Positions 29,609 through 54,252 of a DNA stretch of 64,000 nucleotides are shown one piece after another. The stretch is from assembly GCF_008065115.1 (NCBI RefSeq), contig NZ_CP042913.1, positions 4,443,278 to 4,507,277 of the forward strand, written 5' to 3'. The translations under genes were made by a program, and so were the position numbers. The DNA comes from Bythopirellula goksoeyrii. Lineage in GTDB: Bacteria > Planctomycetota > Planctomycetia > Pirellulales > Lacipirellulaceae. Under the pieces are notes generated by a model that was not told where the DNA came from, did not search any database, and saw only the letters and a list, made by a program, of their open reading frames with translations. The stretch's first letter is position 1, and each line of letters opens with the position of its first letter.

Positions 29609-29631
29609 GTAACTGTTTCAGGTACAGTTTC
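29609..29631. promoter_or_regulatory. Paired candidate operators for adjacent LacI protein
   Basis: Plus strand GTAACTGTTTC (29609-29619) and GGTACAGTTTC (29621-29631) differ by one and two bases from the perfect palindrome GAAACTGTTTC, or its complement, at 30790. Both lie just after the -10 of the PEP-CTERM promoter, where a repressor would block the start. Confidence 0.4.
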
Positions 29632-29659
29632 AGTATAATCGTTGCGACCGACATGTCAA
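29632..29659 (-). promoter_or_regulatory. Promoter for PEP-CTERM/GH16 run
   Basis: Minus strand TTGACA (perfect) and TATACT (5/6) with a 16-base spacer, between the LacI gene's stop and the PEP-CTERM gene. The 5' leader would be about 200 bases. Confidence 0.5.
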
Positions 29660-29711
29660 GCAAAATCGGAAATTTTTTTCTGGCCTATTTCGATACGGAT
29701 ATTTGCCTCTT

Positions 29712-35901: not shown

Positions 35902-35966
35902 GCTACTATTTCCTAAGTTCAAATTATTAGATGTGTGACGGCCTTCGGAGAGCTATCAAGTCAATA

Positions 35967-37019: not shown

Positions 37020-37409
37020 AATCACACCAATCCTATTACTCGATAGAGGGGAAGCAGCAAGAAGTTTGAGATTAAGAGATCTGAAGCGAGTTAGAATCTT
37101 CACTATGGTCATTGTGATCACTTCTGATGGGTCTTACAACGGGTTACAAGAAGGAAAGCAATCAGGCCAAGAGTCAGTAACGTGACGATAATTCAAAATG
37201 TAAATTTGTTTCAAGGACCATTGTTCGACTTGAAGGCGATTTTTTGAGTCTTCGAATTCAAGCCGGAGTTCATTTCGATTTTTGAAGAACTTCGAAAGGC
37301 GTACCCGTTGGATATAATGCATACGGGGGAACTGTGGCCTATCAAGCAAACTTAATGGATGGCCAATCGGAACTTACACTTTGAAAGTTGGTCGACGTGG
37401 GTGATTTCG

Positions 37410-38219
37410 ATGAATGATTGTCTCACTCTGTTCCGTTTACTCGGGGTATGTGTTCTCTTTTTTTTTCGGTTCGCGGCAGCAGATAACGCTCTTAGTCACG
37501 AAGGCCGAATATTTTCGATCGAAGTCGTCAACGGTAAACTCCAGGTCCAAGGCATTAATACGGGCGAGCCGGACGGAGCTCCCACGACAAGGCCCTATGT
37601 GAACTCTATGCATGATCATTGGAAGAACTCTACGATACCAGAATTGGGCCCTATCGCGAATTCCTTCTTGCCAGACTACGAGATCCAAATCGGCACTGCA
37701 TTCGTTATTTTGAAGGATCATGAAGTTACTTTGGAACTCCTCAGTGCATCGCAGTGGGTCAATCCGCCGATGATGCCACTGCCGGGAACGATTCCTCACC
37801 TCCGGCCGCTCGACCCGGGGGAAGTGATCCGCATTGAAGCGGGTACCACCGTCACTACCGACTCGCTTGGCACTTTACTGCTTAGCTCCTCAGTCCCTCA
37901 GACGGGCATCGCAGATATCTTGGTGAATTACTCGATCGATGGCCATCCGACGAACGAAATCCACGTCCTTGAGTTCCGCCTCTCTGCGTCTCCTACAGAT
38001 CTCAATCAGCCCAGCATGATAAGAGACAGCGATCCCATCTATGTGCTGCTATCGCCAGATGGTGCCAATCCCATGGAAAAACTGCATTACGCGTCGCTGT
38101 ATTTAGAGCAGTACCTGGCAACAGTTCCAGAACCTAATTCTATCACATTGGTATGCTTGGCAACCGCTCTGTTGTGTACCAGGCCTTGCACCATAAACTC
38201 ACTAGGCTCAAACCTCTAA
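37410..38219 (+). CDS. PEP-CTERM secreted protein of unknown function
   Basis: A 269-residue protein. A signal peptide (LTLFRLLGVCVLFFFRFAAA) precedes a mostly beta body without a family I recognise (HEGRIFSIEVVNGKLQVQG, PYVNSMHDHWKNSTIPE, DYEIQIGTAFVILKDHEVTLEL). The C-terminus is a PEP-CTERM-type tail, VPEPNSITLVCLATALLC, ending with a short polar segment that lacks the usual Arg cluster. The ATG at 37410 is closest to the signal; the frame opens at 37359. It is convergent with the GH55-like gene and lies alone on its strand. Confidence 0.7.
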   Translation: MNDCLTLFRLLGVCVLFFFRFAAADNALSHEGRIFSIEVVNGKLQVQGINTGEPDGAPTTRPYVNSMHDHWKNSTIPELGPIANSFLPDYEIQIGTAFVILKDHEVTLELLSASQWVNPPMMPLPGTIPHLRPLDPGEVIRIEAGTTVTTDSLGTLLLSSSVPQTGIADILVNYSIDGHPTNEIHVLEFRLSASPTDLNQPSMIRDSDPIYVLLSPDGANPMEKLHYASLYLEQYLATVPEPNSITLVCLATALLCTRPCTINSLGSNL

Positions 38220-38230
38220 CGACTCTCTTC

Positions 38231-39997: not shown

Positions 39998-40091
39998 CTT
40001 CGCGTCTTTGATGCGATGAGAGGTTCTTTTCAGCAATGTCACAAAATGAATCATTGAAGACTTCGTGTATATTAAGGACATGGACATGAAA

Positions 40092-40102
40092 ATGTTTTAC
40101 AT
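40092..40102. promoter_or_regulatory. Inverted repeat ATGTTTTACAT
   Basis: A 4-3-4 inverted repeat in the divergent region between the GH55-like and GH30 genes. It resembles the ATGTA/TACAT repeat upstream of the GntR/LacI-type regulator at 11379, with one base less per arm. Chance occurrence cannot be excluded. Confidence 0.25.
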
Positions 40103-40254
40103 GGGAATTCGCTTCACAAGATAGGACTACAACTTCAAATCTTTATGTAAGCCATTTCGAATCGGCTGGTGTCGCTAATTGAAAATTGACTTGTCGATAG
40201 TTACAATCCTGAAACTTTGCAGCTTATCCGTCAATCACAACAAGTAGCACTTCT

Positions 40255-41763
40255 ATGTCTATTTCATCCTTCTGGCTTTGTATAGTCACCATCTTGGTAG
40301 GTCATCAAGCAAATTTGGCGCCTTGTCATGCGAAGGATTCCTTGCAGATCAAGATTTTTGAGACCTCACGTGCAGGCGCAAAGCTCATGGAACGAACCCA
40401 CGAACATCTGTCTAGTGCTAATGACTCAGAGCTTCCCACTATCCGAATTCAGAAAGAGCAACGTTTTCAAAAAATCTTCGGCTTCGGGGGTGCTTTCACC
40501 GAATCCACCGCGTATGTATTGAATCAGCTAGATAGTGAGAAGAGAAAGGAAGTCATCAACTCCTACTTCAGCCCTGCAGGTGCAAACTATTCCTTGACTC
40601 GGACGCACATTAATAGTTGCGATTTCTCACTCGATACCTATGCCTATGCCAATACGGCGAGCGATATCAATCTCGTAGATTTTAGTGTCGAGCCCGACCT
40701 CGATGATCTCGTTCCCCTCATCCAGGACGCCTTGGCAGTTCCACATGCCGAGTTCAAGATCATTGCCTCTCCCTGGACCGCTCCCCCCTGGATGAAAGAT
40801 AATAACCTCTGGTATGGCGGTTCCCTCAAGTCAGAATTCTATCCAACATGGGCACTCTATTTCTCGAAGTATATTCAGGAATATGAAAAGCTGGGCATCC
40901 CCATTTGGTCGGTCACTGTCGAGAACGAACCGCTTGGAAATGGTGCCCAATGGGAGAGCATGATATACACCCCTGCCACGATGGCTGACTTCATCAAGAA
41001 TCACCTTGGCCCTCGCTTCCAAGAGGATGGAATCGATACCAAGATACTCATTTACGACCAAAATCGAGACCATCTGAAGCAGTGGGTTACCGAAGTCTTT
41101 AGCGACCCCGAAGTAGCCAAGTTCGTGTACGGGACAGCCGTCCATTGGTACAGCAGTACGGTCGAATGGTATCCCGAAGTTCTTACCGAAGTGCATGAAG
41201 CATTTCCTGACAAGCCGCTAATCGAAACCGAAGGTTGCATCGACGCAGAGATACCACATTGGCAAGATGACGATTGGTACTGGAGTAAAGAAGCGACGGA
41301 TTGGGGGTATGACTGGGCACCCGAAGAGGACAAACACCTTCACCCGAAATACGTGCCCGTCTACCGATATGCCCGAGATATAATCGGAGGACTCAACTCT
41401 TGGCTCAGCGGTTGGGTCGACTGGAATCTCGTGCTAGACGACAAGGGAGGTCCCAACCATGCGAAGAACTGGTGTATCGCGCCTGTCCTGGTGAAACCTG
41501 AAACCAAGGAAGTCTATTACACTCCGCTCTACTATGTGATGGCGCACTTCAGCAAATTCATTCGACCTGGTGCGATCCGACTAGGAATCGATTGTGAAGC
41601 GAAAGATCTCATGGTCACTGCCTGCAGCAATCCCAATGGCAGCATCGCCGTGGTCGCGCTCAACCAAACAGAAAAAGCAGTAAGCTACAAACTCGTATGT
41701 GACAACCTTCACACGACACTTACTATACCAGCTGAAGCGATTCAAACAATTGTGCTAGATTAG
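40255..41763 (+). CDS. GH30 glucosylceramidase-type glycosidase
   Basis: A 502-residue secreted glycosidase of family GH30. The leader (SSFWLCIVTILVGHQANLAPCHA) is followed by the typical GFGGAFTESTAYVLNQL and LTRTHINSCDFSLDTYAY, PWTAPPWMKDN, the acid/base Glu in VTVENEPLG (about residue 225), the nucleophile Glu in IETEGC (about 326), and SWLSGWVDWNLVLDDKGGPNHAKNWC. Such enzymes cleave beta-linked glucosides; bacterial members include beta-1,6-glucanases. Placed beside GH16, GH17 and GH55-like genes, removal of beta-1,6 branches from laminarin is a likely role. It starts with an ATG at 40255. Confidence 0.9.
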   Translation: MSISSFWLCIVTILVGHQANLAPCHAKDSLQIKIFETSRAGAKLMERTHEHLSSANDSELPTIRIQKEQRFQKIFGFGGAFTESTAYVLNQLDSEKRKEVINSYFSPAGANYSLTRTHINSCDFSLDTYAYANTASDINLVDFSVEPDLDDLVPLIQDALAVPHAEFKIIASPWTAPPWMKDNNLWYGGSLKSEFYPTWALYFSKYIQEYEKLGIPIWSVTVENEPLGNGAQWESMIYTPATMADFIKNHLGPRFQEDGIDTKILIYDQNRDHLKQWVTEVFSDPEVAKFVYGTAVHWYSSTVEWYPEVLTEVHEAFPDKPLIETEGCIDAEIPHWQDDDWYWSKEATDWGYDWAPEEDKHLHPKYVPVYRYARDIIGGLNSWLSGWVDWNLVLDDKGGPNHAKNWCIAPVLVKPETKEVYYTPLYYVMAHFSKFIRPGAIRLGIDCEAKDLMVTACSNPNGSIAVVALNQTEKAVSYKLVCDNLHTTLTIPAEAIQTIVLD

Positions 41764-42440: not shown

Positions 42441-44528
42441 TCATGCAGGTTGAAGACACCTATTACGGAGGAAATAGCTGCCTTGAACAAGAACAAGTAT
42501 TAGCATCAAGCCCCATGAAGTCGGTTCTGGTACAACTGCGACCGGCAGACTTGGCGAACTGCCAAATTGTCTTTGCCATAGCAAGAAATCCCTGCCGTCG
42601 ACAATTCCGTCACCATTCGCATCGCCCGACGACTGCACTGCACCAGAGGAAGTTCCATACCATGTTGACCACACCGTGAGGTCCTTTCCATCAACGTTAC
42701 CGTCCCCATCAAAGTCTGCACTAAGGGTTGGAAGCGCGACATCAAGAATCAGTCCGCCGTCGGTCAGACTTGCGGTAACAACTTGAACTGCCCCGTTGTG
42801 CGTCACGGTGATCTCATAGTCGCCTTTGAATCCTCTGAGATCGATAGAACCGGCGAGTTCTGAAGTCAGTTCCTCATCCGTCCACCAATCGGAGTAGACC
42901 AAATCAAGATAGGCTTGACCATTCGGCTTCATCGTCCAATCACTGCTGAACATCGCCGCTTCTGGTCGCCAATGAGCGTCTTCCCAGAAGCCCCACATCA
43001 GGAAGTCATCAATGTCTTCATGAGCGAACACCGCCGTCAGAAAATCACGAGTATATTCAGCTTGGAGTTGCTCATCTGAAGTGCCGAAGTCGAATTCTGT
43101 GATTTGCATATCAAGTCCAAGCTGAGCAAAACGATCAAATATCGTCCACAGATCCTCAGGACCCGTCAAATCTCCTTGTGAAAAATGTCCTTGAAAACCG
43201 ATGCCGTCAATCGGGGCATTGTTGTTTACGAGGAATTCCACCGTGTCGAAGTATTCTTGTTGGTTGAAAGTGTTCGTCCCGCCACCCGAAGAGAGAATGC
43301 CAAAATTATTGATATATCGCTTCGCTGTCGGGTCAGCAGCCAAGGCAGCATTGAACCAATCGACCATGGCCAGGTCTCCCTCCGAGAGATTATCCATGAC
43401 ATCATGATTGGTGCGAGTCTCATTAATCACATCCCAGGCTGATAGTTGACCAGCAAACGTACCAGCGATGTCGGCTATGTGATCAGCGATAGCAGTGCGC
43501 AGCTGTTGTTGCTGTGCCCCGTTGAGTGGCGCATTGTCGAGCAAATTCTTAATCGGTGTCGGCAAGTTGCTGTAACCTGGCCAAACAAGCGTGTGACCGC
43601 GGACGCTGATGTCTTGCCCAGCAAGCCAATTCACAGCATTCTGAGCACCAGACTGAGTAAAATTGCTGCCCCACTCACCTTCCCAAGGTGGCCACTTCAG
43701 ATTGTTTTCGATGGTGGCCAGATTGAACAGTTCAGAGACTTTCTGCTTGTACGCGTCATGAACTGGGTTGCTATCTCGTAGTCTGCTGGCGACAACTGCC
43801 GATCCAAACCCGAATTCATGTTCTGTCATCTGCACGGAGACCTCCGCGCCAGAAACTGCATTGCCGAGAGAGTCTGTGACATTGATTTGAATATCGGCTT
43901 TGCGATTGGCTTCGATACGCGCTGCGGCTTCAGTCCGCCACAGAGCATCTGGCTCAGCACCTGGGTAGGCCGGTGGGGCGGGAACGGTATCAGAGATCGC
44001 CACCCTATCGAAGCTCAAATCGAATGGGGAAGGCGAACTGAAAGTACCAAGTACTTGCCAAGTGGTGATATCGCTGAGATCTAAATTGGCAAAGTCGCCG
44101 ACGCCATGCGTCGGATTGGCGAGGGTAGTCGCGGAAACCAATGTACTGGGAACGCCGATATCAAGACTTGAAACACCAAACGTCCATTTACCTGTTCTAC
44201 CAGAGGAGTCAATCAGTTCGAGATCAAACTTGTCTACTCCATTGCCAGCGTTTGGAAACAAATCGACCACGAAACGGCTATCGGCGTGAGAAGCGAGGTC
44301 AAGCGAAAGGCCAATACCAGCACCACCCGAATCATCCACCGGGTCATGGATGCGAACTGAGTTCACTCCAGTAGACTGATTAAAGCCGCCAAACGTATAG
44401 TCAAAGCCTGTGCCGTTAAAATCCGACAAGACGAGATCTGCAGCAACAGCTGGCCGTAGAACGAGAATGCTGAGTAGAGAAAATACTAGCCACTTCCAGC
44501 GACAAGGGCCTTTAAGCCAGTGATTCAT
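42441..44528 (-). CDS. GH10 endo-xylanase with dockerin and PEP-CTERM
   Basis: A 695-residue secreted xylanase. After a signal peptide (WLVFSLLSILVLRPAVAA), residues 30-180 are a CBM-like sandwich (LVLSDFNGTGFDYTFGGF, STGVNSVRIHDPVDDSGG). The GH10 barrel holds VRGHTLVWPGYSNLP, the acid/base Glu in WDVINETRTNHD (about residue 368) and the nucleophile Glu in ITEFDFGT (about 477). A dockerin-like pair (ADFDGDGNVDGKDLTVWSTWYG, GDANGDGIVDGRDFLLWQRQFG) and a PEP tail (VPEPTSWGLMLILVLVQG) follow. The ATG at 44528 places the signal at the N-terminus; the frame opens at 44717. The promoter overlaps a LacI-type operator, so expression is probably xylan-inducible. Confidence 0.9.
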   Translation of the reverse strand: MNHWLKGPCRWKWLVFSLLSILVLRPAVAADLVLSDFNGTGFDYTFGGFNQSTGVNSVRIHDPVDDSGGAGIGLSLDLASHADSRFVVDLFPNAGNGVDKFDLELIDSSGRTGKWTFGVSSLDIGVPSTLVSATTLANPTHGVGDFANLDLSDITTWQVLGTFSSPSPFDLSFDRVAISDTVPAPPAYPGAEPDALWRTEAAARIEANRKADIQINVTDSLGNAVSGAEVSVQMTEHEFGFGSAVVASRLRDSNPVHDAYKQKVSELFNLATIENNLKWPPWEGEWGSNFTQSGAQNAVNWLAGQDISVRGHTLVWPGYSNLPTPIKNLLDNAPLNGAQQQQLRTAIADHIADIAGTFAGQLSAWDVINETRTNHDVMDNLSEGDLAMVDWFNAALAADPTAKRYINNFGILSSGGGTNTFNQQEYFDTVEFLVNNNAPIDGIGFQGHFSQGDLTGPEDLWTIFDRFAQLGLDMQITEFDFGTSDEQLQAEYTRDFLTAVFAHEDIDDFLMWGFWEDAHWRPEAAMFSSDWTMKPNGQAYLDLVYSDWWTDEELTSELAGSIDLRGFKGDYEITVTHNGAVQVVTASLTDGGLILDVALPTLSADFDGDGNVDGKDLTVWSTWYGTSSGAVQSSGDANGDGIVDGRDFLLWQRQFGSSPSLPVAVVPEPTSWGLMLILVLVQGSYFLRNRCLQPA

Positions 44529-44776
44529 TCGAAGGTGTTGGCAATCTCTATATTCAAGTAAGTTTCCATCCATTACAATCACCAGCCTCAGAAAAGAAAA
44601 AGTTCCAAGAGACGTTACTTGACACCGGTCGACGATTGCCGTCATCCATTCTAGGTCGCACATCTCAAGAAGAGTCGTTTCACTCTTCCTTCGATGGCAA
44701 GCCTGCAGCATTCCCAACGCAGGAACGCGCTCAGAAATAAGCGCGGATTCCGGCTAATTCAACATCTACAAGCAGG

Positions 44777-44805
44777 ATTTTCTCATGTAGTGACAGCGCT
44801 GTCAA
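44777..44805 (-). promoter_or_regulatory. Promoter for GH10 xylanase
   Basis: Minus strand TTGACA (perfect) and GAAAAT (4/6) with a 17-base spacer. The -35 and spacer lie inside the palindromic operator at 44791-44804, so repressor binding would exclude RNA polymerase. Confidence 0.5.
44791..44804. promoter_or_regulatory. Perfect LacI-type operator TGACAGCGCTGTCA
   Basis: A perfect 14-base palindrome with the central CGCG-type core (GCGC) of LacI operators. It overlaps the GH10 promoter. A one-mismatch copy lies 95 bases away, centre to centre, beside the LacI gene. Confidence 0.7.
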
Positions 44806-44885: not shown

Positions 44886-44899
44886 TGACAGCGCTATCA
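44886..44899. promoter_or_regulatory. LacI-type operator TGACAGCGCTATCA
   Basis: One base different from the palindrome at 44791. The 95-base spacing is close to nine turns of DNA, so a tetrameric LacI protein could bind both on one face and form a loop. Confidence 0.65.
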
Positions 44900-45039: not shown

Positions 45040-46044
45040 TTGCCAGTTTCAATCAATGATATTGCCCGAAAAGCTGGAGTCTCGCACTCGACGGTCGCGC
45101 GCGTCCTGAGGGGCGACGTGAAAGGCGCCCAGAAACGTAGTGCTGAGAAATCTGCGGAAATTCTCCGCCTGTCAGCAGAACTCGGATATCAACCCGATTG
45201 GCGAGCACGGGCCCTATCTCGTCGCAAAACACAGACGATTGGCCTGCTCTATTCAAATCCAAGTTGGATTTTTGAGGATCCTATGAATGAAATTGCAGTC
45301 TCATTTACTGAGTCACTGCAACAACATAACTATGATTTGCGCTTGATTCCCGCCAACTCGCAGGAACATTGGAAGGAACTCATCTACGGAGGTGCCGTCG
45401 ACGGGCTGGCAATGCTGCTACATATCCCCGAAGGCACCGAGGATGCTATTTGGAAAAGCGGGCTACCTACGATCTTATTAGGAGATAAGCTCGGCGACGA
45501 AGTGCCTCATGTGGTTCCGGATGATGTGGGGGGCGCCTATTCGGCTACTCGCCACTTGATCGGACTCGGGCATAAATCCATCGCCTTCTATATCGATGAA
45601 TCAATTCGCTTCCATGTGAGCGTGGATGAAAGACGGCAAGGTTTCAACCGAGCTATTGAAGAGGCAGGCGACTGTGTGCGAGGAGAAACCTGGCAGATCG
45701 GGTCCGATGAAGCAATCGACCGTTTGCTGACCCATGACCGACCGACCGCGCTACTTGGGTATTGCCACGTAGAAGCCTTGAAAATCACTCACGCAGCATG
45801 GGCTCACGGACTGTCGATTCCAACAGACTTAAGCCTTATTGCCTTTAACGACATTATGATGACACGACACATGACTCCACCTCTTTCTGTTGTCGGATAC
45901 GACATGAAAGAGATGGGGCATCGTGGAGCTGAAATGCTGGTGCGCTGTATCGAAAAGCCAGCCTCGAAAAAACTGCAAAACGTAGTATTACGTCAGAAAC
46001 TTATTATTCGTGGCACGACGGCTCCACCAGCGTCAAGGATCTAA
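45040..46044 (+). CDS. LacI-family transcriptional regulator
   Basis: A 334-residue repressor. The N-terminal domain (INDIARKAGVSHSTVARVLRG, LSAELGYQPDWRARALSRRKTQTIG) is a LacI helix-turn-helix and hinge; the sensor has GLAMLLHIPEG, HLIGLGHKSIAFYIDE, ALLGYCHVEALKITHAAWAHG, and LSLIAFNDIMMTRHMTPPLSVV. The TTG at 45040 is the likely start, with GGAG 11 bases upstream. It is divergent from GH10 across two matching palindromes and faces the PEP-CTERM/DUF1559/lipoprotein/GPH/GH10/GH3 run. It probably represses both directions in the absence of xylo-oligosaccharides. Confidence 0.9.
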   Translation: MPVSINDIARKAGVSHSTVARVLRGDVKGAQKRSAEKSAEILRLSAELGYQPDWRARALSRRKTQTIGLLYSNPSWIFEDPMNEIAVSFTESLQQHNYDLRLIPANSQEHWKELIYGGAVDGLAMLLHIPEGTEDAIWKSGLPTILLGDKLGDEVPHVVPDDVGGAYSATRHLIGLGHKSIAFYIDESIRFHVSVDERRQGFNRAIEEAGDCVRGETWQIGSDEAIDRLLTHDRPTALLGYCHVEALKITHAAWAHGLSIPTDLSLIAFNDIMMTRHMTPPLSVVGYDMKEMGHRGAEMLVRCIEKPASKKLQNVVLRQKLIIRGTTAPPASRI

Positions 46045-46124
46045 TGGAGGTGCAATTGCTAGACGTTTAAGTTGTCTTTTTAACCGAGATTCTCTTCACG
46101 TACTCGTCACTAGGAGGTTTGATC

Positions 46125-47480
46125 ATGTTTAAATCTTATGCCAAGAAAACCAGTGTAATCGTTGCGTTCATATTCATTCTTACTTCTGCCCGTGTCGAGG
46201 GTGCTGTTTTTGCTAATTTCGACGCGGCTCAATTCGATGCCAACGGGTTTGCGTTCGCCGACTTTGACGACTTCTTTGCCGTCGATACCTCGGGTGGCTC
46301 AATCAGTATCGACATCAATAGCGACATCGATGGACAAAACGGTCTTTTCGGTGGAATGGGATCAGACATTGTAGCCGACTTCACTGCAGCAACGACCCAG
46401 CTAGAGATCACGCTGACGGTCGACCCCCTTAACGTCGCCAGCAACTTCCGCATCGTACTTGTCGACAACGACGGAGTCGACACGGGCGAGGAATACCAAT
46501 TCTACATTGATCTCGCCAGTCTAACCCCTGGTCAACCGACACTCATTACCCAATCGTTGATCAACCCAGGTCCGGTCTATCGCCAAGCTGCCAATGGGCA
46601 AACGGATGGAGATATGGTTCAAAACTACGGACTGCGGCAGATGCAGATTCAAAGTGAATTCGGTGGTACAAACCGCTTGAAGATTGATGTTGAGAGCATC
46701 AAGTTGGTTGACCCAGACGATCCCTTGCTTATCGAATTCAACACAACAACCTATGAGGCCCAAACCCAAACTTTTACGTTTGGCACTTTTAGCGAGGCCG
46801 GAGTGCTGGATGCGTCGGGCTCAACCTTCTTAATCAACGCGGATCCAGCCGGAACTGGTGGGCCCAGTGGTGGTTTTGGCTTTAACGGCTTGAACGTAGA
46901 TTTCGATGCCACTCAATACCAAATAGAGATCGAGGCCAAATTACTCCCCAACAACACCGCCGACCAGTTTAATCTGGTCTTAGGTGACAATGACGGAGAC
47001 GACAGTGGCCCTGGCTTGGGAAGTGATGACTACAATTTCTTCGTGGACACTTCCAACTTCAATACGTCTGATTTCAGCACCTTTACTATTCCCTTGGGAA
47101 CCGGATCTGAAACCGACTTCGTTACTACTTTCGGATTTACTAATGGCGGTGACGGACTGCAGAATTTCGGACTCAGCCAGATGCAGATCCAATCGAGTGG
47201 TGATGACCCGGGTGTGCTGGGCATTGAAGTACTGCGTTTTTCAATTGTCGAGCGACCCGATGGTATTGCCGGGGACTTCGACGATGATGGTGATGTGGAC
47301 GGAAACGATTTCCTCGTCTGGCAACGAAATCCTGCCGTCGGGAACTTGTCCGATTGGCAGGCCAACTATGGAGCGCCGCCGCTTGCTGCCTCAGCGAGCG
47401 TCCCTGAACCAGCCACCTGGATGCTCCTGCTGTGTGCTGCTGGCGCGTTGCCCATTCGCCGAATAACAGAGAGGTCCTGA
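46125..47480 (+). CDS. PEP-CTERM protein with dockerin, two repeated domains
   Basis: A 451-residue exported protein. The signal (TSVIVAFIFILTSARVEG) is followed by two copies of a beta domain of about 180 residues; shared blocks include VADFTAATTQLEITL / DFDATQYQIEIEAKL, FRIVLVDNDGVDTGEEYQF / FNLVLGDNDGDDSGPG, and NYGLRQMQIQSEFGG / NFGLSQMQIQSSGDD. A dockerin-like module (GDFDDDGDVDGNDFLVWQR, SDWQANYG) and PEP tail (VPEPATWMLLLCAAGAL) end it. The ATG at 46125 has AGGAGG 7 bases upstream, one of the best ribosome sites here. It heads the DUF1559/lipoprotein/GPH/GH10/GH3 run. A glycan-binding role is inference. Confidence 0.85.
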   Translation: MFKSYAKKTSVIVAFIFILTSARVEGAVFANFDAAQFDANGFAFADFDDFFAVDTSGGSISIDINSDIDGQNGLFGGMGSDIVADFTAATTQLEITLTVDPLNVASNFRIVLVDNDGVDTGEEYQFYIDLASLTPGQPTLITQSLINPGPVYRQAANGQTDGDMVQNYGLRQMQIQSEFGGTNRLKIDVESIKLVDPDDPLLIEFNTTTYEAQTQTFTFGTFSEAGVLDASGSTFLINADPAGTGGPSGGFGFNGLNVDFDATQYQIEIEAKLLPNNTADQFNLVLGDNDGDDSGPGLGSDDYNFFVDTSNFNTSDFSTFTIPLGTGSETDFVTTFGFTNGGDGLQNFGLSQMQIQSSGDDPGVLGIEVLRFSIVERPDGIAGDFDDDGDVDGNDFLVWQRNPAVGNLSDWQANYGAPPLAASASVPEPATWMLLLCAAGALPIRRITERS

Positions 47481-47493
47481 TTGAAGTCATGGC

Positions 47494-47519
47494 GCCGGTG
47501 GGTTGGGCAGCCCATCGGC
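47494..47519 (+). terminator. Hairpin after PEP-CTERM gene
   Basis: GCCGGTGGG and CCCATCGGC pair over 9 bases with one G-U, around an 8-base loop, 13 bases after the stop. No T-run follows, so it may only reduce read-through into DUF1559. Confidence 0.4.
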
Positions 47520-47590
47520 TCCGTTAATATCTTGCTCTCTGGCTAAGATATATATGCCAGAGCTTTTCAACTAAATTGGGAACGGAAGTC

Positions 47591-48670
47591 ATGACAAGTC
47601 CTACTACTCGTCGCGGATTTACGTTGGTCGAATTGCTGGTCGTAATCGCCATCATAGGTGTTCTTGTCGCATTGCTGCTACCGGCAGTTCAAGCCGCGCG
47701 TGAGGCAGCCCGCCGCACCAGTTGCGTCAACAATTTGAAGAACATAGCTCTGGCGGCAATCAACCACCACGACCAGCAAGGTGCATTTCCAATCGACGAA
47801 GACTATTACGACGGGAATTCCGTTCAAGAAGTTGATATAGATTCGCTCACCTATACCTGGCAACCGCGCAGTAGATTCGGTACTCCGAAAGAAGGCCTTG
47901 ACGGTGGTGGTTGGATAGTGCGTGTCTTGCCATACATGGAACAACAAGCACTCTACGACCGATTTAACATTCCTGGACATGGACTGAACGGTGATTGGAA
48001 TGACAGGCAGAATTTGGGAATGAACTATACACTAGATCCTAATTTCCGCGCAGCGGTTGAAACTCAGCCCGAGGTACTGGTCTGTCCTTCGGACGAATTC
48101 GGCGGATTGCAATTGAACCAGTTTCCATATTCCGACAATAGCGTACCCTTCGGCAGGGAACTTACCGTTGCGACAACATGTTATAAGGGTAATGCTGGCG
48201 ATGCGCACTTCGAGTTCCTACCCAGCTTCGCCCCACAACCTCCCGGCCTATATACATATGACCCGCTGTTCCAATGCTACAGTGGCGACGACTGCGTGGG
48301 AATGTTCTGGAGAACTACCTATATCCGCGGGGGTGTAGAATTGCGGCAAGTAACTGACGGCGCCAGCAACACGTTTCTTATTGGAGAGACTTCCCCAGTC
48401 GATGGCAACAGCCCCGCGTGGTCCAGCGATGGAGACTGGGCGATCACGGCGATCAAACTCAATTGGGATCCAAATACTTCAGGAGCCTGTACAAATCCGG
48501 GTGCAAGAGAATGCTGGACACAGTACCGGGGTTTCCGAAGCAAACATCCAGGAGGCGCTAATTTTGCGATGACCGATGGTTCGGTATCATTCGTGCAAGA
48601 CGGAATTAATCCCCTGATCTATCGTGCGCTTTCGACCCGTAACCGTGGCGAGACCTCCACTAAAGAGTGA
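47591..48670 (+). CDS. DUF1559 pseudopilin-like protein
   Basis: A 359-residue DUF1559 member. The leader RRGFTLVELLVVIAIIGVLVALL and AAREAARRTSC match the copies at 49 and 26360. The C-terminal H-X9-DG motif is HPGGANFAMTDGS, and VTDGASNTFLIGE is present. The ATG at 47591 has GGAAG 2 bases upstream and GGGAAC a little further; the TTG at 47576 is less likely. It lies between the PEP-CTERM gene (110 bases upstream) and a small lipoprotein gene (32 bases downstream). The same three-gene order occurs at 25788-28338. Confidence 0.9.
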   Translation: MTSPTTRRGFTLVELLVVIAIIGVLVALLLPAVQAAREAARRTSCVNNLKNIALAAINHHDQQGAFPIDEDYYDGNSVQEVDIDSLTYTWQPRSRFGTPKEGLDGGGWIVRVLPYMEQQALYDRFNIPGHGLNGDWNDRQNLGMNYTLDPNFRAAVETQPEVLVCPSDEFGGLQLNQFPYSDNSVPFGRELTVATTCYKGNAGDAHFEFLPSFAPQPPGLYTYDPLFQCYSGDDCVGMFWRTTYIRGGVELRQVTDGASNTFLIGETSPVDGNSPAWSSDGDWAITAIKLNWDPNTSGACTNPGARECWTQYRGFRSKHPGGANFAMTDGSVSFVQDGINPLIYRALSTRNRGETSTKE

Positions 48671-48702
48671 ATGTATTGCAGCAGGATTTAGGAGCGAAAT
48701 GA

Positions 48703-49149
48703 ATGCAAACCTACCTTGTTAGTTACCCGCCCAGCAGCAATTCTGCTTGGTTGTGCACGGCCGCAACTTTTTTTATTGCCTCGCTCGCTGGGTGCGGTAG
48801 CGAATATGGTTCAACGGCGATCGGAGTCGTAACGCTCGATGGAAATCCAATTACTCCTGGCCTCGTAACCTTTGTACCTGAAGATCCCACCGCTGTTCCC
48901 TCGGTGAGCAATCTCGATTCAAACGGCGGCTACGAACTCAAGACGAACAAGTTGCCCGGGCTATCACCTGGGAAATACCGAGCTTCGGTACAAGCATTCC
49001 GCCCACCAGATGTGCCGGAAGGTCAACGCAGTTTCGAGCCTTCAGAGCCACTGGTTCCAGAAAAATACTTGCAAGTAACTACATCTGGCCTGGAATACAA
49101 TGTCGAACTTGGCAGCAATACGATCAACATTGAGTTAATCACAGATTAG
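48703..49149 (+). CDS. Small lipoprotein with TTR-like beta domain
   Basis: A 148-residue lipoprotein paralogous to that at 25788. The signal (CTAATFFIASLAGCG) includes the lipobox LAGC. The beta domain has GVVTLDGNPITPGLVTFVPED, GGYELKTNKLPGLSPGKYRASV, VPEKYLQVTTSGLEYNVEL and a final NTINIEL strand. The ATG has AGGAG about 8 bases upstream. It sits between DUF1559 and a GPH symporter gene. Role unknown; the repeated pairing is the strongest clue. Confidence 0.8.
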   Translation: MQTYLVSYPPSSNSAWLCTAATFFIASLAGCGSEYGSTAIGVVTLDGNPITPGLVTFVPEDPTAVPSVSNLDSNGGYELKTNKLPGLSPGKYRASVQAFRPPDVPEGQRSFEPSEPLVPEKYLQVTTSGLEYNVELGSNTINIELITD

Positions 49150-49248
49150 GCCGCGATTCTAGGTCTTGCGGATATCTCTCCACTCCAATGCGAGTGTGTT
49201 ACTCTGAAGAACCACACGTCGATCAGAGGCCGATCCTAAAGGGTGTCG

Positions 49249-50646
49249 ATGCAACAAGGCTCACAAGAACTCTCCGTTCTGGAGAAAACCGGTTACAGTC
49301 TGGGTGATTGCGCCGCCAATTTTGTGTTCCAAACACAGATCATGTTCTTGATGGGCTTCTATACTGATGTGTTTGGAATTGCCGCCTCAACTGCAGGCTA
49401 CATTTTCCTACTTTCTCGATTATGGGATGCTTTCAACGACCCCTTGATGGGAGCACTCGCTGATCGAACGGATACAAGATGGGGAAAGTTCCGACCTTGG
49501 ATTCTGATAACTGCCGTACCTTTCGCGATACTTTTTGTCCTGTGTTACACTGTCCCCGATCTTAGTTTGACCGGAAAGATCGTGTGGGCTGTCATTACCT
49601 ACAATCTGCTGATGATGATCTACACGGCCAACAACATCCCCTATTCGGCACTGACCGGGGTGATGACAGGTGACCGTGCAGAGCGTGGCAGTTTGGTAAC
49701 TTGGCGCTTTGTCTTCGCGATGATCGCCCAGTTTGTAGTTCAGACGTACACGCTCAGTATCGTGGCAGCTTTCGGCGGGCAAGCAGACCCTGCTGGGGCA
49801 TGGCAGAAGACGATTGCATTGTGGGCACTCATTGCCGTGGTGTTTTTTTTCATTACCTTTGCCACTACAAGAGAGAGAGTAAAGCCTGATCCACAGTTCA
49901 AGAGTTCACTTCGCGGAGACTTGGCTGACTTGTTAGGCAATCGCAACTGGGTGGCGCTGGCTGTGGCTACTGTGTTTATCTTTATTTGCCTCTCCATGCG
50001 TGGCGGGAGTACTTATTACTACTTCCAATACTACATTCGGGAAGGTGAGGTTTTTGGGAGAACTCCTTCCTGGCAGGATCTCTTCGGGTGGTTTAATGGA
50101 TTGGGAACCCTGACCACAATCGCCGGTGTATTGCTTTCCAAGCCACTAGCAATGCGATTCGGTAACAGGGATGTCTTCCGAGTAAGTCTGTTTCTCACTG
50201 CCGTCTGCATGGCAGCTTTCTATTTTCTGCCACCCACTGCAGTGCAAGCGATCTTACTGTTGCAGATGCTACTGCAATTTATCTACGGGACCACGATCCC
50301 TTTGCTCTGGGCCATGATGGCAGACGTGGCCGACTTTACCGAGTGGAAGACGGGTCGCAGAGCGACCGCCATGACTTTTGCTTTGACCGTATTCGCATTG
50401 AAGCTGGGTCTGAGCTTGGGAGGTGCCTTCCAAGGTTGGCTGCTTGACTACTACCAGTATGCTCCCAATGCAGCACAATCAGAGCATACCCTCGAGGGAA
50501 TCCGATTGCTAATGAGCATATTCCCAGCGATCTCGTTCTTTCTGGGAGTAGGAGCGTTGCTATACTACAAAATTGATAAGCCAACTGAACTGCAAATGCA
50601 CGAAGAGCTCACGCAGCGTCGCAGACGACAACAAGCAAGCTACTAG
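49249..50646 (+). CDS. GPH-family glycoside:cation symporter
   Basis: A 465-residue inner-membrane transporter with about 12 helices. It shows FNDPLMGALADRTDTRWGKFRPWI (GPH signature), NIPYSALTGVMTGDRAERGSL, and MADVADFTEWKTGRRATAMTFAL. These match the xyloside/glucuronide/melibiose symporter group (XynB/XylP-like). It should import xylo-oligosaccharides or related glycosides with Na+ or H+. The ATG at 49249 has AAGGG 6 bases upstream. GH10 follows after 8 bases and GH3 after that, so transport, secreted xylanase and cytoplasmic glycosidase form one operon. Confidence 0.9.
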   Translation: MQQGSQELSVLEKTGYSLGDCAANFVFQTQIMFLMGFYTDVFGIAASTAGYIFLLSRLWDAFNDPLMGALADRTDTRWGKFRPWILITAVPFAILFVLCYTVPDLSLTGKIVWAVITYNLLMMIYTANNIPYSALTGVMTGDRAERGSLVTWRFVFAMIAQFVVQTYTLSIVAAFGGQADPAGAWQKTIALWALIAVVFFFITFATTRERVKPDPQFKSSLRGDLADLLGNRNWVALAVATVFIFICLSMRGGSTYYYFQYYIREGEVFGRTPSWQDLFGWFNGLGTLTTIAGVLLSKPLAMRFGNRDVFRVSLFLTAVCMAAFYFLPPTAVQAILLLQMLLQFIYGTTIPLLWAMMADVADFTEWKTGRRATAMTFALTVFALKLGLSLGGAFQGWLLDYYQYAPNAAQSEHTLEGIRLLMSIFPAISFFLGVGALLYYKIDKPTELQMHEELTQRRRRQQASY

Positions 50647-50654
50647 GTGACAGA

Positions 50655-51836
50655 ATGAGGTTCCATTCCAAAGTGGATCTGATTATGAATAAACCCATCT
50701 CCCAAATTCTAATTCAACTTGTGATTTGCAGCATTTGCCTGCAGGTACGTATCGCGTTGGCCCAGCAAGCGACATTGAAAGAGGCCTTCGACAAGGACTT
50801 TCTTGTCGGAACTGCTTTGAGTACTGCACAAGTACTTGGCGATACACCAGCCGCTTTGGAGTTAGCCGCCCGACAGTTCAACTCAATCACTGCTGAGAAT
50901 CTGCTTAAGTGGGAAAGTGTTCATCCAGAGCCAGATAGATACGATTTCGAAGCCGCGGATAAATTCGTGGATTTCGGTGAGAACCACGACATGTTTGTCG
51001 TGGGCCACACATTGGTGTGGCACAGCCAAACGCCACAATGGGTCTTCGAGGACGACCAAGGAAATCCCCTCGAACGAGATGCTTTACTTGATCGTATGCG
51101 GGACCATATCCATACCGTTGTTGGTCGCTACAAGGGCAGAATCCATGGATGGGACGTTGTGAATGAGGCCATCGTCACCGATCCAAATGACGAGAGCAGA
51201 GGCTCCTGGCGCGAAACACCTTGGTATAGAATCATTGGCCCAGACTACATCGAGAAGGCTTTTCAATTTGCCCATGAGGCGGACCCCGAGGCTGAGCTGT
51301 ATTACAACGACTTCGACGAATGGAAGCTCGGCAAACGTGACTATTTTGGAAAAATCGTCTCTGATCTCAGAAACAAAAACATTCGCATCGACGGAATCGG
51401 CCTCCAAGGACATTGGGGACTCGACTATCCAACGGTTACCGAAATCGAGTCGATGCTCACCGGTCTAAGTCAACTTGGCGTGAAGTTAATGATTACGGAA
51501 CTGGATATGAATGTGCTGCCTAGTCCGTCTAGTAATACCGGTGCCGACGTGACGATGCGCATACAGGACCAACCAGAGTTTAATCCGTATCCCACGGGGC
51601 TGCCCGATGACATTCAAAAACAATTGTCTGATCGGTACGAAGAGATCTTTAGAATGTTTCACGACCATCGAGACACTATCGGCAGAGTAACCTTTTGGGG
51701 CGTCGACGACGGACAATCATGGCGCAACTATTGGCCGATTTCTGGCAGAACAAACTATCCGTTGCTATTTGATCGCAAATACCAGCCCAAACCTGCTTTT
51801 TATTCGGTATTACAGGTAGTCGGTGACGAAAAGTAG
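50655..51836 (+). CDS. GH10 endo-1,4-beta-xylanase
   Basis: A 393-residue secreted xylanase without dockerin or PEP tail. The signal peptide ends LQVRIALAQQ. The barrel has FNSITAENLLKWESVHPE, VGHTLVWHSQTPQW, the acid/base Glu in WDVVNEAI (about residue 171) and the nucleophile Glu in ITELDMNVLP (about 281), then VTFWGVDDGQSW. The ATG at 50655 has AGGTGA 4 bases upstream; an ATG at 50685 is a possible alternative. Unlike the GH10 at 42441 it would be freely secreted or periplasmic. It starts 8 bases after the symporter gene. Confidence 0.95.
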   Translation: MRFHSKVDLIMNKPISQILIQLVICSICLQVRIALAQQATLKEAFDKDFLVGTALSTAQVLGDTPAALELAARQFNSITAENLLKWESVHPEPDRYDFEAADKFVDFGENHDMFVVGHTLVWHSQTPQWVFEDDQGNPLERDALLDRMRDHIHTVVGRYKGRIHGWDVVNEAIVTDPNDESRGSWRETPWYRIIGPDYIEKAFQFAHEADPEAELYYNDFDEWKLGKRDYFGKIVSDLRNKNIRIDGIGLQGHWGLDYPTVTEIESMLTGLSQLGVKLMITELDMNVLPSPSSNTGADVTMRIQDQPEFNPYPTGLPDDIQKQLSDRYEEIFRMFHDHRDTIGRVTFWGVDDGQSWRNYWPISGRTNYPLLFDRKYQPKPAFYSVLQVVGDEK

Positions 51837-51918
51837 CCTCCAGCCAGTGTACCTGACCTACTAACCTTGGTTAGCATTGTTTCCACATTTCAGAACGTTA
51901 GTCTTAGGAGATTCTTTT

Positions 51919-54252
51919 TTGTCTACTGACTCCAGTACCGTTGCTACATCTATTTACCAATGTGCAGATAAGCCGATTGACGAGCGGGTTGCCGACCTAT
52001 TGTCGCAGATGACGCTCGAAGAAAAAGCGGCACAGATGGTTTGCGTGTGGAACGAGAAGAACGATAAGCTGCTCAACGAGCAAGCAGGCTTTGATCCGGT
52101 GCGTGCCAAGAGTCATTTTGGCCATGGGAATGGTTTAGGACAAATAGGACGCTTGAGTGATGCGGGAAGCAAAGCGGGAAAGAACTTTGCGTTGGGAAGA
52201 AACGCTCGCCAAATGGCCGAGCTTACGAACACAATTCAACGCTGGTTTCTCGAGAACAGCCGGCTAGGTATCCCCGTGGTCTTTCACGAAGAGTGCCTGC
52301 ACGGACTCATGGCGGTAGACGCAACTAGCTTTCCTCAGCCGATTGGCTTAGGAGCGACGTTCGATCCTGACCTGCTTCGCAATGTTCACCGCGTTATCGC
52401 CGCTGAGACACGGTGCCGTGGTGGACACCATGCATTATCACCCGTTGTGGACGTTGCCCGCGATCCGCGTTGGGGACGTGTGGAGGAAACCTATGGTGAA
52501 GATCCCTATCTAGTCGCCACAATGGGGACCGCTGCTGTCGAAGGGCTCCAGGGAGATCGGACCTTTACGGATGGCCAAAGTGTTGTTGCGACATTGAAAC
52601 ACTTCGCCGCTCATGGCCAGCCAGAATCAGGTACGAATTGTGCCCCCGTAAATGTTTCAATGCGCGTGTTACGCGAAGTATTTCTCGACCCATTCAAGAA
52701 AGCTATCCAACAAGGCAAGTCCTTGGCGGTAATGGCCTCTTACAATGAAATAGACGGTGTTCCCTCCCACGCCAATCGCTGGCTCTTGCGCGATGTGTTG
52801 CGAAACGAATGGGGATTCGACGGCGTCGTCGTATCAGACTATTACGCAATTCGTGAACTCAACGAGAGGCCCGATCTCTATGGTCATCATTTGGCCGTTG
52901 ACGGCAAACAGGCGGGCGAACTCGCAGTGCGAGCAGGTGTCAACATGGAGCTACCTGAACCGGATTGCTATCTAACGTTGGTCGAAAGCATTCAAGATGG
53001 ACAACTCTCGGAAGTTGAACTCGATGAGATGGTGCGTCCGCTATTAAAACAGAAATTTCAGCTCGGGCTGTTTGACAACCCCTATGTCGATCCAGAACTC
53101 GCCGAGCATCTTTCTGGGAGCGAGGCGCATCGTTCCATTGCTTTGCGAGCAGCTCATAAGACCATCACTCTGTTGAAGAACCATAATAAGACGTTGCCAA
53201 TCAATAGAGACAACATAAACACGATTGCAGTGATTGGCCCCAACGCCGATAGAAGCCTCCTGGGCGGCTATAGTGGTCTTCCGCGTTTCCAAACGACCGT
53301 ACTGCAGGGAATTCGAGACCACTTAGACAACTCGGCTCAAGTGGTCTACCACGAAGGATGCAAGATTACCAAGGGAGGGTCATGGTTCGAAGACGAGGTC
53401 GTACCGTATGACGCAGAGGAAGACCGTCGAAGTATTGTAGATGCCGTCGAAGCTGCCCGGGCTGCCGATCTGATTGTACTCGCTCTTGGCGGCAATGAGC
53501 AGACTTCTCGGGAAGCCTGGATGAGCAATCACCTAGGCGATCGCGCAAGCCTAGAGCTCTTTGGCAAGCAGGACGCTCTGGTAAATGCTCTGGCCGAGCT
53601 GGGAAAACCGATGGTTGCTTTTCTATTCAACGGTCGGCCATTGGCTTTTAGTAATCTGGCGGAAAAAGTGGACGGTCTCTTCGAGTGCTGGTATCTTGGA
53701 CAAGAGACTGGCAGAGCAATTGCTGACGTACTGTTCGGCGATGTGAATCCAGGTGGAAAACTGCCCATCTCAATCCCGCGATCAGTTGGGCATATTCCCT
53801 GCTTCTACAATCACAAGCCTTCTGCCAGACGCGGATACTTATTTGACGAAGTCACACCCCTATTTCCCTTCGGTTTCGGCCTGAGCTATACGCAATTCGA
53901 AATTGGACCACCCAAACTGCTTCGGTCACAGATCGCGGTAGGGGAATCGACGATTGTTCAAGTCGAACTAATGAATACTGGCAAGCTGCCTGGCGATGAG
54001 GTGGTGCAAATGTATATTCGCGATTGTGTCAGTTCGGTAACACGCCCTGTCAAAGAACTCAAAGGATTTCAACGCGTGACCTTAGAAGCTGGGGAAAAAC
54101 GCACGGTCTCTTTGGAAATAACACCAGAAAGCTTGGCGTTCTATGACATTGACATGAACCATGTTGTCGAACCCGGTGAATTCAAGATCATGGTCGGCAA
54201 CTCATCTAAAGACTCAGATCTTCAATGCACAATGCTGGAAGTCGTAGTCTAA
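51919..54252 (+). CDS. GH3 beta-glycosidase (xylosidase-type)
   Basis: A 777-residue cytoplasmic enzyme. The N-terminal barrel has LGIPVVFHEECLHGL, DVARDPRWGRVEETYGEDPYL, VATLKHFAAHG and the nucleophile Asp in VVVSDYYAIREL (about residue 306). The C-terminal sandwich (TITLLKNHNKTLPI, IAVIGPNADRSLLGGYSG) and a fibronectin III-like end (VVQMYIRDCVSSVTRPVKELKGFQ) complete the three-domain GH3 layout. There is no signal peptide. I chose the TTG at 51919, which has TAGGAG about 8 bases upstream; the frame opens at 51877. It probably releases xylose from imported xylo-oligosaccharides. Confidence 0.9.
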   Translation: MSTDSSTVATSIYQCADKPIDERVADLLSQMTLEEKAAQMVCVWNEKNDKLLNEQAGFDPVRAKSHFGHGNGLGQIGRLSDAGSKAGKNFALGRNARQMAELTNTIQRWFLENSRLGIPVVFHEECLHGLMAVDATSFPQPIGLGATFDPDLLRNVHRVIAAETRCRGGHHALSPVVDVARDPRWGRVEETYGEDPYLVATMGTAAVEGLQGDRTFTDGQSVVATLKHFAAHGQPESGTNCAPVNVSMRVLREVFLDPFKKAIQQGKSLAVMASYNEIDGVPSHANRWLLRDVLRNEWGFDGVVVSDYYAIRELNERPDLYGHHLAVDGKQAGELAVRAGVNMELPEPDCYLTLVESIQDGQLSEVELDEMVRPLLKQKFQLGLFDNPYVDPELAEHLSGSEAHRSIALRAAHKTITLLKNHNKTLPINRDNINTIAVIGPNADRSLLGGYSGLPRFQTTVLQGIRDHLDNSAQVVYHEGCKITKGGSWFEDEVVPYDAEEDRRSIVDAVEAARAADLIVLALGGNEQTSREAWMSNHLGDRASLELFGKQDALVNALAELGKPMVAFLFNGRPLAFSNLAEKVDGLFECWYLGQETGRAIADVLFGDVNPGGKLPISIPRSVGHIPCFYNHKPSARRGYLFDEVTPLFPFGFGLSYTQFEIGPPKLLRSQIAVGESTIVQVELMNTGKLPGDEVVQMYIRDCVSSVTRPVKELKGFQRVTLEAGEKRTVSLEITPESLAFYDIDMNHVVEPGEFKIMVGNSSKDSDLQCTMLEVVV

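Follow-up and report, generated by a model that had tools for sequence, protein, structure and literature searches.

A seven-gene locus at 45040-54252 of the window, the whole 64,000-nucleotide stretch of the Bythopirellula goksoeyrii genome analysed here, places a PEP-CTERM protein, a DUF1559 pseudopilin and a small lipoprotein between a LacI-family regulator and the genes for a sugar symporter, a GH10 xylanase and a GH3 beta-glycosidase. We put the chance at about even (roughly 0.5) that the whole is best explained as a LacI-controlled xylan-utilisation locus with a co-produced envelope module that holds xylan at the surface. It was confirmed that DUF1559 recurs with lipoprotein and PEP-CTERM genes far above chance genome-wide.

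The xylan locus and its proposed control

The Pfam scan and gene calls show the seven genes on the forward strand, in the order LacI, PEP-CTERM protein, DUF1559, lipoprotein, MFS_2, GH10 and GH3, with intergenic gaps of 26-110 bases (Table 1). A GH28 gene lies at 54603, 350 bases past the GH3 end. Glycosidases (GH10, GH3) and a dedicated regulator (LacI) are co-located, as in PUL of the SusC/SusD type. All the genes that the first-pass annotation had named were found where it had placed them, and its remark that SusC/SusD genes are absent agrees with the Pfam scan (E up to 0.001), which reported no SusC, SusD or TonB-receptor family in any of the 42 called genes of the window.

Table 1. Features of the xylan locus and of the other DUF1559 loci in the window
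Feature	Position	Strand	Evidence
PEP-CTERM GH10, divergent from LacI, carrying an N-terminal module and a dockerin-like repeat	42441-44573	-	PF00331 E 8.5e-45, Dockerin_1
Perfect 14-base palindrome TGACAGCGCTGTCA, candidate LacI operator	44791-44804		between LacI and divergent GH10 gene
Second near-palindrome TGACAGCGCTATCA, 95 bases on	44886-44899		between LacI and divergent GH10 gene
LacI-family regulator	45040-46044	+	PF00356 E 3.7e-9, Peripla_BP_3
PEP-CTERM protein, two tandem modules	46125-47480	+	VPEP end; halves alike
DUF1559 (PF07596), prepilin N-terminus, H-X9-DG motif	47591-48670	+	PF07596 E 1.5e-43, N_methyl
Small lipoprotein, putative transthyretin/CarboxypepD_reg-like domain	48703-49149	+	lipobox, VTLDGxP motif (here VTLDGNP)
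MFS_2 (GPH-type) sugar symporter	49249-50646	+	PF13347 E 7.3e-91
GH10 xylanase	50673-51836	+	PF00331 E 5.2e-99
GH3 beta-glycosidase	51919-54252	+	PF00933, PF01915, PF14310; E 2.3e-71
GH16 enzyme, PEP-CTERM end, second cassette	24056-25720	-	PF00722 E 4.2e-24; directly downstream of lipoprotein
TTR-like lipoprotein, second cassette	25788-26252	-	VTLDGKP motif
DUF1559 pseudopilin, second cassette	26360-27400	-	PF07596 E 2.9e-47
PEP-CTERM protein with dockerin-like repeat, second cassette	27445-28314	-	translation; resembles 28692-29420 protein
Another PEP-CTERM protein, second cassette	28692-29420	-	PF07589 22.5 bits
LacI-family regulator, second cassette	29712-30764	-	PF00356 E 1.2e-16
MFS_2 symporter, divergent from second-cassette LacI	30943-32418	+	PF13347 E 3.1e-62
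Third DUF1559 gene	49-1092	+	PF07596 E 1.3e-49
EF-hand protein with LDGRPL stretch, partner of third DUF1559	1165-1827	+	EF-hand matches; lipoprotein profile weak, E 3.4e-4

The gene order of the xylan locus is kept in two other genomes, at L098 (72-92% identity, with two additional called ORFs of 234 and 103 aa in between) and at L101 (38-63%, another genus), and in both an orthologue of the PEP-CTERM GH10 stands at the equivalent place. At L121 the regulator and cassette genes precede a protein with 27% identity to the PEP-CTERM GH10 of the window, and at L128 they precede GH3, the PEP-CTERM GH10 being divergent; L099 has a symporter-GH10-GH3 cluster without the cassette upstream. Relatives of the second cassette were found at L112, L114 and L116. 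For a comparison by regulator, genomes other than the window's gave 35 LacI rows, of which 34 were kept after G027, below the curated cut-off, was dropped, and 48 TetR rows, of which 30 were used, from genomes also carrying LacI; with at least 6 kb of flank required of each anchor, 25 LacI and 26 TetR remained. The PEP-CTERM-DUF1559-lipoprotein order was seen at 7 of the 25 LacI anchors and at none of the 26 TetR anchors (p 0.004, the genomes being related), and a DUF1559 gene within 5 kb at 9/25 as against 5/26, which is not significant (p 0.22).

Operators of LacI-family regulators are palindromic, with a central CG, and lie at the regulated promoter. The palindromes at 44791 and 44886 have this central CG and promoter position, and are candidate sites for the LacI at 45040, one of five LacI matches genome-wide. 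The first is identical in L098 (2744) and has one mismatch in L101 (4023), and the second has a counterpart with two mismatches in L098 (2841), so that the placement is conserved for both palindromes in L098 and for one in L101. With up to one mismatch, the operator-like sequence occurs at two further places in 1.34 Mb of the B. goksoeyrii genome.

The two halves of the PEP-CTERM protein at 46125 are 35% identical over 118 aa (E 3e-14). Its C-terminus reads VPEPATWMLLL...RRITERS and has a PEP-CTERM score of 17.1 bits (cut-off 20.7); the L101 counterpart scores 25.9. An hhalign comparison of 11 module sequences (10 after filtering) with 4 enzyme sequences gave a remote match between the modules and the N-terminal module of the neighbouring PEP-CTERM GH10 (probability 91-94). 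In a plain HMM search with the module the enzymes matched weakly, the best being the L101 enzyme (i-E 0.003), and the window's GH10 enzyme was not significant; in direct BLAST the best match to the PEP-CTERM GH10 fell in the common dockerin/PEP end. No CBM match to the protein was found in Pfam (E up to 5), nor any match in a PDB sequence search, and its AlphaFold model was poor (pLDDT 39, 2 sequences). The likeness to the xylanase module gives moderate support to glycan binding by the PEP-CTERM protein, and substrate capture is suggested because the tandem modules remotely resemble that module.

The cassette across the genome

The DUF1559 protein of the locus scores 150.2 bits on PF07596 (cut-off 23.3) and covers positions 1-267 of the 268 of the profile. 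A prepilin cleavage/methylation motif lies at its N-terminus (PF07963 31.1 bits, cut-off 21.2; TIGR02532 31.8, cut-off 16.3), and its AlphaFold model was poor (pLDDT 33, 7 sequences). PF07596 has 80 matches in the B. goksoeyrii genome, and excerpts of earlier papers report 68-91 members in three other planctomycetes (PMC2754498, PMC10632474, PMC8567305).

The partner lipoproteins have a lipobox with a nearly invariant Gly-Cys column across 30 aligned rows. Their family profile matches PDB 6xi3 at 1.9e-6, NOMO2 at 1.4e-4 and a TTR-like protein at 0.76, and the two copies in the window have no Pfam match at E up to 5. Within the B. goksoeyrii genome this family is found only beside DUF1559 genes: all 37 profile matches lie within 1.5 kb of one (1.7 expected; reached by 0/2000 position shifts), a count that is partly circular as the profile was built from DUF1559 neighbours, its non-circular part being that no match away from DUF1559 genes came out of the genome-wide search. 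A lipoprotein gene on the same strand and at most two genes away accompanies 36 of the 80 DUF1559 genes, and the other 44 have none within two genes. Sequence distances of DUF1559 and lipoprotein are correlated, with r 0.40 for the 36 pairs, 0.52 for the 30 that remain when six are dropped (lipoprotein shared, upstream or non-adjacent) and 0.49 for 26 when four EF-hand pairs are also removed; nearest neighbours are concordant in just 9 of the 36.

Observed counts near the 80 DUF1559 genes were compared with 2000 position shifts. PEP-CTERM sites, counted from 150 of 316 candidates scored, lie within 3 kb in 40 of 99 cases (7.8 expected), and all six FecR genes (0.7 expected) and four of the five LacI genes (0.6 expected) lie within 5 kb; none of the 2000 shifts reaches any of these counts. 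For MFS_2 the count is 3/4 (0.5 expected; 4/2000 shifts), one of the three being a weak match, and for kinases 1/39 (4.8 expected). Sulfatases are not enriched within 5 kb (7/34, 4.1 expected), and GH10 genes are not significant (2/3; 127/2000 shifts). It follows that PEP-CTERM, DUF1559 and lipoprotein genes make up an envelope cassette that is used repeatedly and is linked to regulated operons, because the order is kept, the lipoprotein is always by DUF1559, and LacI and FecR genes are near in these proportions.

The Pfam families of neighbouring genes of at least 200 aa were tallied for four sets: 55 genes lying downstream of a lipoprotein-linked DUF1559 gene and 56 lying upstream of one, 97 next to DUF1559 genes without that link, and 109 controls; each tally lists its first 25 families. 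The controls came from 11 stretches of 20 kb, chosen non-randomly at round-number positions that avoid DUF1559 genes. The genes downstream of cassettes are mixed, with molybdopterin dehydrogenases, beta-propellers, an Na:alanine symporter and a TRAP binding protein among the families listed, and an ECF sigma/FecR pair lies near six DUF1559 loci. The lack of sulfatase enrichment, and one copy that stands ahead of molybdopterin-dehydrogenase genes, show that the cassette is not purely polysaccharide-linked.

Function of the cassette and known systems

If the xylan reading is right, xylo-oligosaccharides would release LacI from the two palindromes; the sites are seen and conserved, and it is the inducer and the binding that we infer. 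Release would switch on the divergent GH10 gene together with the operon that runs from LacI to GH3. The three genes after LacI would be made as one envelope module, in which the DUF1559 pseudopilin is presumably processed by prepilin peptidase, with the TTR-like lipoprotein as its partner, and the tandem modules of the PEP-CTERM protein may hold substrate at the cell surface. Xylan would in this way be concentrated near the envelope, GH10 and GH3 would cut it and the symporter would import the products. The cassette is reused at other loci, some of which are not for polysaccharides; there its PEP-CTERM heads and enzymes are different ones, and the regulator is LacI or an ECF sigma/FecR pair. 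The first-pass annotation had suggested a surface apparatus that captures polysaccharide and passes it on to enzymes and transporters. The part of this that stands is a recurring unit joined to a regulated xylan operon, a join kept in another genus, and the PEP-CTERM modules fit glycan binding; a purely polysaccharide role is not borne out, given the mixed downstream genes, the sulfatases and L099.

A possible but doubtful alternative makes DUF1559 a pseudopilin dedicated to a machine of the type II secretion kind, with a cassette that exports or sorts the PEP-CTERM proteins and enzymes encoded beside it and does not bind glycan. GspG, GspH and pilin models do pick up DUF1559 N-termini, with scores under their curated cut-offs, and PEP-CTERM and dockerin-like proteins are abundant in cassettes. 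But a family of 80 paralogues, of which 36 have a lipoprotein partner nearby, has more the look of many substrate-specific parts than of components of a single export machine, and transport or dehydrogenase genes come after some cassettes. The conservation of order and of the same enzymes across genera, the presence of related PEP-CTERM heads at L121 and L128, themselves related loci, and the strong tie of LacI and FecR to DUF1559 in its own genome make it improbable that DUF1559 and lipoprotein are an expanded generic envelope module, nutrient-controlled in many operons and with no role for the local substrate. This would suit the mixed downstream genes and the lack of sulfatase enrichment, as well as the 68 paralogues, two of them essential, reported for Planctopirus limnophila in the consulted part of PMC10632474. 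A role of DUF1559 proteins in binding small solutes such as compatible solutes is suggested by the Pfam name SBP_bac_10 and by nine such genes of Rhodopirellula baltica that rise within an hour of the onset of cold and salt shock (PMC2754498, in excerpt), but the prepilin-type N-terminus and the association with LacI, FecR and PEP-CTERM genes make this highly improbable.

The xylan locus resembles the SusC/SusD PUL of Bacteroidetes in that both bring glycosidases together with a regulator, a transporter and a surface module. ECF sigma/FecR-type pairs control Bacteroidetes polysaccharide loci, and the pairs near six DUF1559 loci are a further likeness. The difference is that no SusC, SusD or TonB receptor was found in the window; here the putative surface module is pseudopilin, lipoprotein and PEP-CTERM protein, and import would be through the MFS_2 symporter. 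It is conceivable, though on balance unlikely, that DUF1559, TTR-like lipoprotein and PEP-CTERM head are the planctomycete counterpart of SusC/SusD, that is, interchangeable substrate-specific capture units, each with its own LacI or sigma/FecR sensor, which form polysaccharide-binding fibres or tips and feed macromolecules into an enlarged periplasm.

That pili act as a 'fishing rod' for polysaccharide is a hypothesis already published (PMC5394234, restated in PMC12078418; both in excerpt), and dextran binds pili-like fibres (PMC5394234). Planctomycete pili-like fibres and crateriform structures are alike to our case in that pilin-like proteins are proposed to catch polysaccharide for periplasmic uptake, but the available portions of these two papers name no gene, whereas the xylan locus offers specific candidates. 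The N_methyl/SBP_bac_10 (DUF1559) proteins of Tuwongella immobilis belong to the same family and were found mainly in detergent- and SDS-soluble fractions (PMC8567305); the excerpt of that study makes no tie to CAZymes, LacI, FecR or a single lipoprotein family. CAZymes, regulators and transporters are also co-localised in the CAZyme gene clusters of Planctomycetota, but a text search of that work found no SusC, SusD, pseudopilin or SBP_bac in its main text, nor any DUF1559 (PMC11131199). The locus is a concrete, testable candidate for planctomycete polysaccharide capture without SusC/SusD, and it supplies identified candidate genes from a type strain whose genome is sequenced, together with a matched regulator with visible operator-like sites.

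Other copies in the window

A DUF1559 gene and lipoprotein had also been reported to recur at 49-1827; the DUF1559 gene is present, but its partner is the EF-hand protein with LDGRPL, and there is neither a PEP-CTERM gene directly upstream of this third DUF1559 gene nor a recognised glycosidase adjacent to it. The repeat of the trio reported at 25788-28338 was found in identical order, on the reverse strand, and this second cassette, next to GH16, offers an internal control. Beyond the earlier description, it was also possible to observe that the second cassette has its own LacI, a second PEP-CTERM gene, the GH16 gene downstream and a divergent MFS_2 gene.

Cassettes and their surroundings in the window

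The cassette reported by the first-pass annotation was found as claimed in the window, which spans positions 4443278-4507277 on one contig with a length of 6,473,141 bases, the LacI, PEP-CTERM, DUF1559, lipoprotein, MFS_2, GH10 and GH3 genes following each other on the same strand with gaps of 26-110 bases. The second copy is real and fuller than claimed, it adds a LacI gene, two PEP-CTERM genes in all and a GH16 gene, and an MFS_2 gene is divergent from its own LacI. At the third place, where a DUF1559-lipoprotein pair had been reported, the DUF1559 gene is present, but its partner is an EF-hand protein, and no recognised enzyme was seen beside the pair. The reported absence of SusC/SusD was borne out; neither these nor a TonB receptor were reported in the 42 of 42 called window genes.

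In the second cassette the first PEP-CTERM gene is directly followed by a perfect hairpin of 14 bp, and the RNA fold of window 28640-28700 was -34.5 kcal/mol (z -7.5). The hairpin could stabilise or attenuate the transcript, resulting in unequal levels of PEP-CTERM protein and DUF1559. GH17 and GH30 genes were observed at 32434-41763, near the GH16 cassette, together with two large proteins without Pfam match, possibly unrecognised enzymes.

Coordinates of the features in the window and in other DNA stretches (L-numbers) from the same genome or relatives
Stretch	Position	Strand	Feature
Window	49-1827		third place, DUF1559 and EF-hand protein
Window	1165-1827		EF-hand partner of DUF1559
Window	24056-30764		second cassette
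Window	28651-28681	-	hairpin
Window	32434-35901		large protein
Window	35967-37019		GH17
Window	38231-40054		large protein
Window	40342-41763		GH30
Window	42441-44573	-	divergent GH10 with PEP-CTERM end
Window	45040-46044	+	first cassette, LacI
Window	46125-47480	+	first cassette, PEP-CTERM
Window	47591-48670	+	first cassette, DUF1559
Window	48703-49149	+	first cassette, lipoprotein
Window	to 54252	+	first cassette, MFS_2, GH10, GH3
L048	5275-5874		EF-hand partner of DUF1559
L049	8640-9143		EF-hand partner of DUF1559
L058	8584-9108		EF-hand partner of DUF1559
L059	3457-5936		ECF sigma and FecR-like protein
L140	1704-4198		ECF sigma and FecR-like protein
L177	8977-11864		fifth LacI gene with adjoining MFS_2 gene (genome position near 3317654)

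The xylan locus in relatives and its operator-like palindromes

GH10 was used as query against 39 genomes, B. goksoeyrii included, and was found at 9 places in 8 of them. The gene order is kept at two of the eight places outside B. goksoeyrii. One is L098 (72-92% identity), where two additional called ORFs, 234 and 103 aa long, are interspersed; the other is L101 from another genus (38-63%). The more distant GH10 genes of L102-L105 are without the unit. A lone DUF1559 gene was seen about 5.6 kb away in L104. L099 has the symporter, GH10, a 529-aa protein and GH3; the cassette is absent upstream, and a DUF1559-lipoprotein pair lies three genes past GH3, with one of these intervening genes on the opposite strand. 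L100 has the symporter, GH10 and GH3; its contig ends at the symporter, which leaves the upstream side outside the data.

TGACAGCGCTGTCA and TGACAGCGCTATCA are in the gap between the divergent GH10 gene and LacI, separated by 95 bases. Operators of the LacI family are generally palindromes of this kind, with CG at the centre. The window has two matches at up to two mismatches (shuffle mean 0.29), a count that by itself is weak because 5 of 100 shuffles reach two or more; both copies sit in this one gap. The equivalent gap holds a pair in L098 (0 and 2 mismatches), a single copy in L101 (1 mismatch) and a looser palindrome in L128, and two further sites with at most one mismatch occur in 1.34 Mb of B. 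goksoeyrii DNA. The simplest reading of these sequences would be a single regulon, with the divergent GH10 enzyme on one side and the entire cassette operon on the other. The fifth LacI gene of the genome, which adjoins an MFS_2 gene and has its nearest DUF1559 10.6 kb off, carries such a site, TGACAGCGCTTTCA, directly upstream.

Associations of DUF1559

The genome has 80 PF07596 matches, and 36 of the 80 have a lipoprotein gene on the same strand at most two genes away. The lipoprotein profile matched 0 of 191 control genes; a lipoprotein-alignment search of the whole genome gave 37 matches, and each of the 37 has a DUF1559 gene at most 1.5 kb away, where 1.7 would be expected. Expected counts here and below come from 2000 circular shifts. 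DUF1559 was found within 5 kb of 4 of 5 LacI (0.6 expected), 6 of 6 FecR (0.7) and 3 of 4 MFS_2 genes (0.5), and within 3 kb of 40 of 99 PEP-CTERM sites (7.8). At 5 kb the sulfatases were not significant (7 of 34, 4.1 expected), GH10 (2 of 3) was equalled in 127 of 2000 shifts, and the kinases gave 1 of 39 (4.8 expected). Six ECF sigma/FecR pairs are close to DUF1559 genes, five of them upstream on the opposite strand and one in line; control stretches also hold sigma factors alone (4 of 14 hits). In L059 and L140 an ECF sigma and a FecR-like protein are in line with DUF1559-lipoprotein genes, and the long C-terminal extension of these FecR-like proteins looks lectin-like from its sequence.

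DUF1559 paralogue distances correlate with lipoprotein distances, r being 0.40 (36 pairs), 0.52 (30) and 0.49 (26), reached in 0 of 5000 permutations for each set. Matching nearest neighbours, on the other hand, were seen for only 9 of 36 pairs. A second partner type, with EF-hand repeats and a weak TTR-like profile match, was observed at several loci.

Eleven relatives gave 34 LacI genes, 25 with enough flank, and 30 TetR genes for comparison, 26 of them counted. DUF1559 was within 5 kb of 9/25 LacI and 5/26 TetR genes (p 0.22), and the simple distance test therefore fails to replicate. The order LacI, PEP-CTERM, DUF1559, lipoprotein, on the same strand without an opposite-strand gene between, was found at 7/25 LacI (L098, L112, L116, L121, L128, L129, L133) and 0/26 TetR genes; given the relatedness of these genomes and the orthology of at least two loci, the p of 0.004 is optimistic. 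The PEP-CTERM proteins of L121 and L128 are related to that of the window (39% and 33-34%). In L121 the genes that follow begin with one whose protein shares 27% identity with the PEP-CTERM GH10; in L128 GH3 (41%) follows, and the counterpart of the PEP-CTERM GH10 (60%) is divergent. L112, L114 and L116 carry LacI (66-87%), DUF1559 (69-90%) and lipoprotein (68-73%) genes related to those of the second cassette; of these loci, L114 has an opposite-strand gene between LacI and the remaining cassette genes, and only L112 has GH16 after the lipoprotein.

Possible roles of the unit

The first 25 of 106 families downstream of lipoprotein-linked DUF1559 include GH10, GH3, GH30, GH32, GH127, an arabinofuranosidase domain, GHL10 and chondroitinase B, and also a Na:alanine symporter, a TRAP binding protein, an aminotransferase and molybdopterin dehydrogenases. 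L022 has a DUF1559-lipoprotein pair with divergent LacI followed by molybdopterin dehydrogenase subunits, and L026 a LacI cassette followed by beta-propeller proteins. The first-pass annotation had proposed an apparatus capturing polysaccharide; in view of these mixed downstream genes the unit is described here as an envelope cassette linked to catabolism, with the xylan and GH16 versions as its clearest examples.

Judging from excerpts of the papers, dextran has been shown on pili-like fibres (PMC5394234), a pilin 'fishing rod' hypothesis stated (PMC12078418), solute binding proposed for the DUF1559/SBP_bac_10 family (PMC2754498), and SBP_bac_10/N_methyl genes reported with signal-peptide genes on their flanks (PMC8567305). 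In the excerpted literature on DUF1559 or SBP_bac_10 the family was not found connected with CAZyme operons that include LacI or FecR, and an earlier mention is possible.

The PEP-CTERM protein of the first cassette gave no match to a CBM family or a solved structure. It contains one module twice (copies 35% identical, E 3e-14), and in profile comparison the module matched the N-terminal region of the divergent GH10 with probability 91 (local) and 94 (global), E-values being for a single comparison; a plain HMM search was weak. Most simply, the protein would be a xylan binder having this module in common with the xylanase. The DUF1559 protein has a prepilin N-terminus and an H-X9-DG motif, and the profile of the lipoprotein has matches to a domain in an adhesin and in NOMO2, in agreement with its TTR/CarboxypepD_reg-like label.
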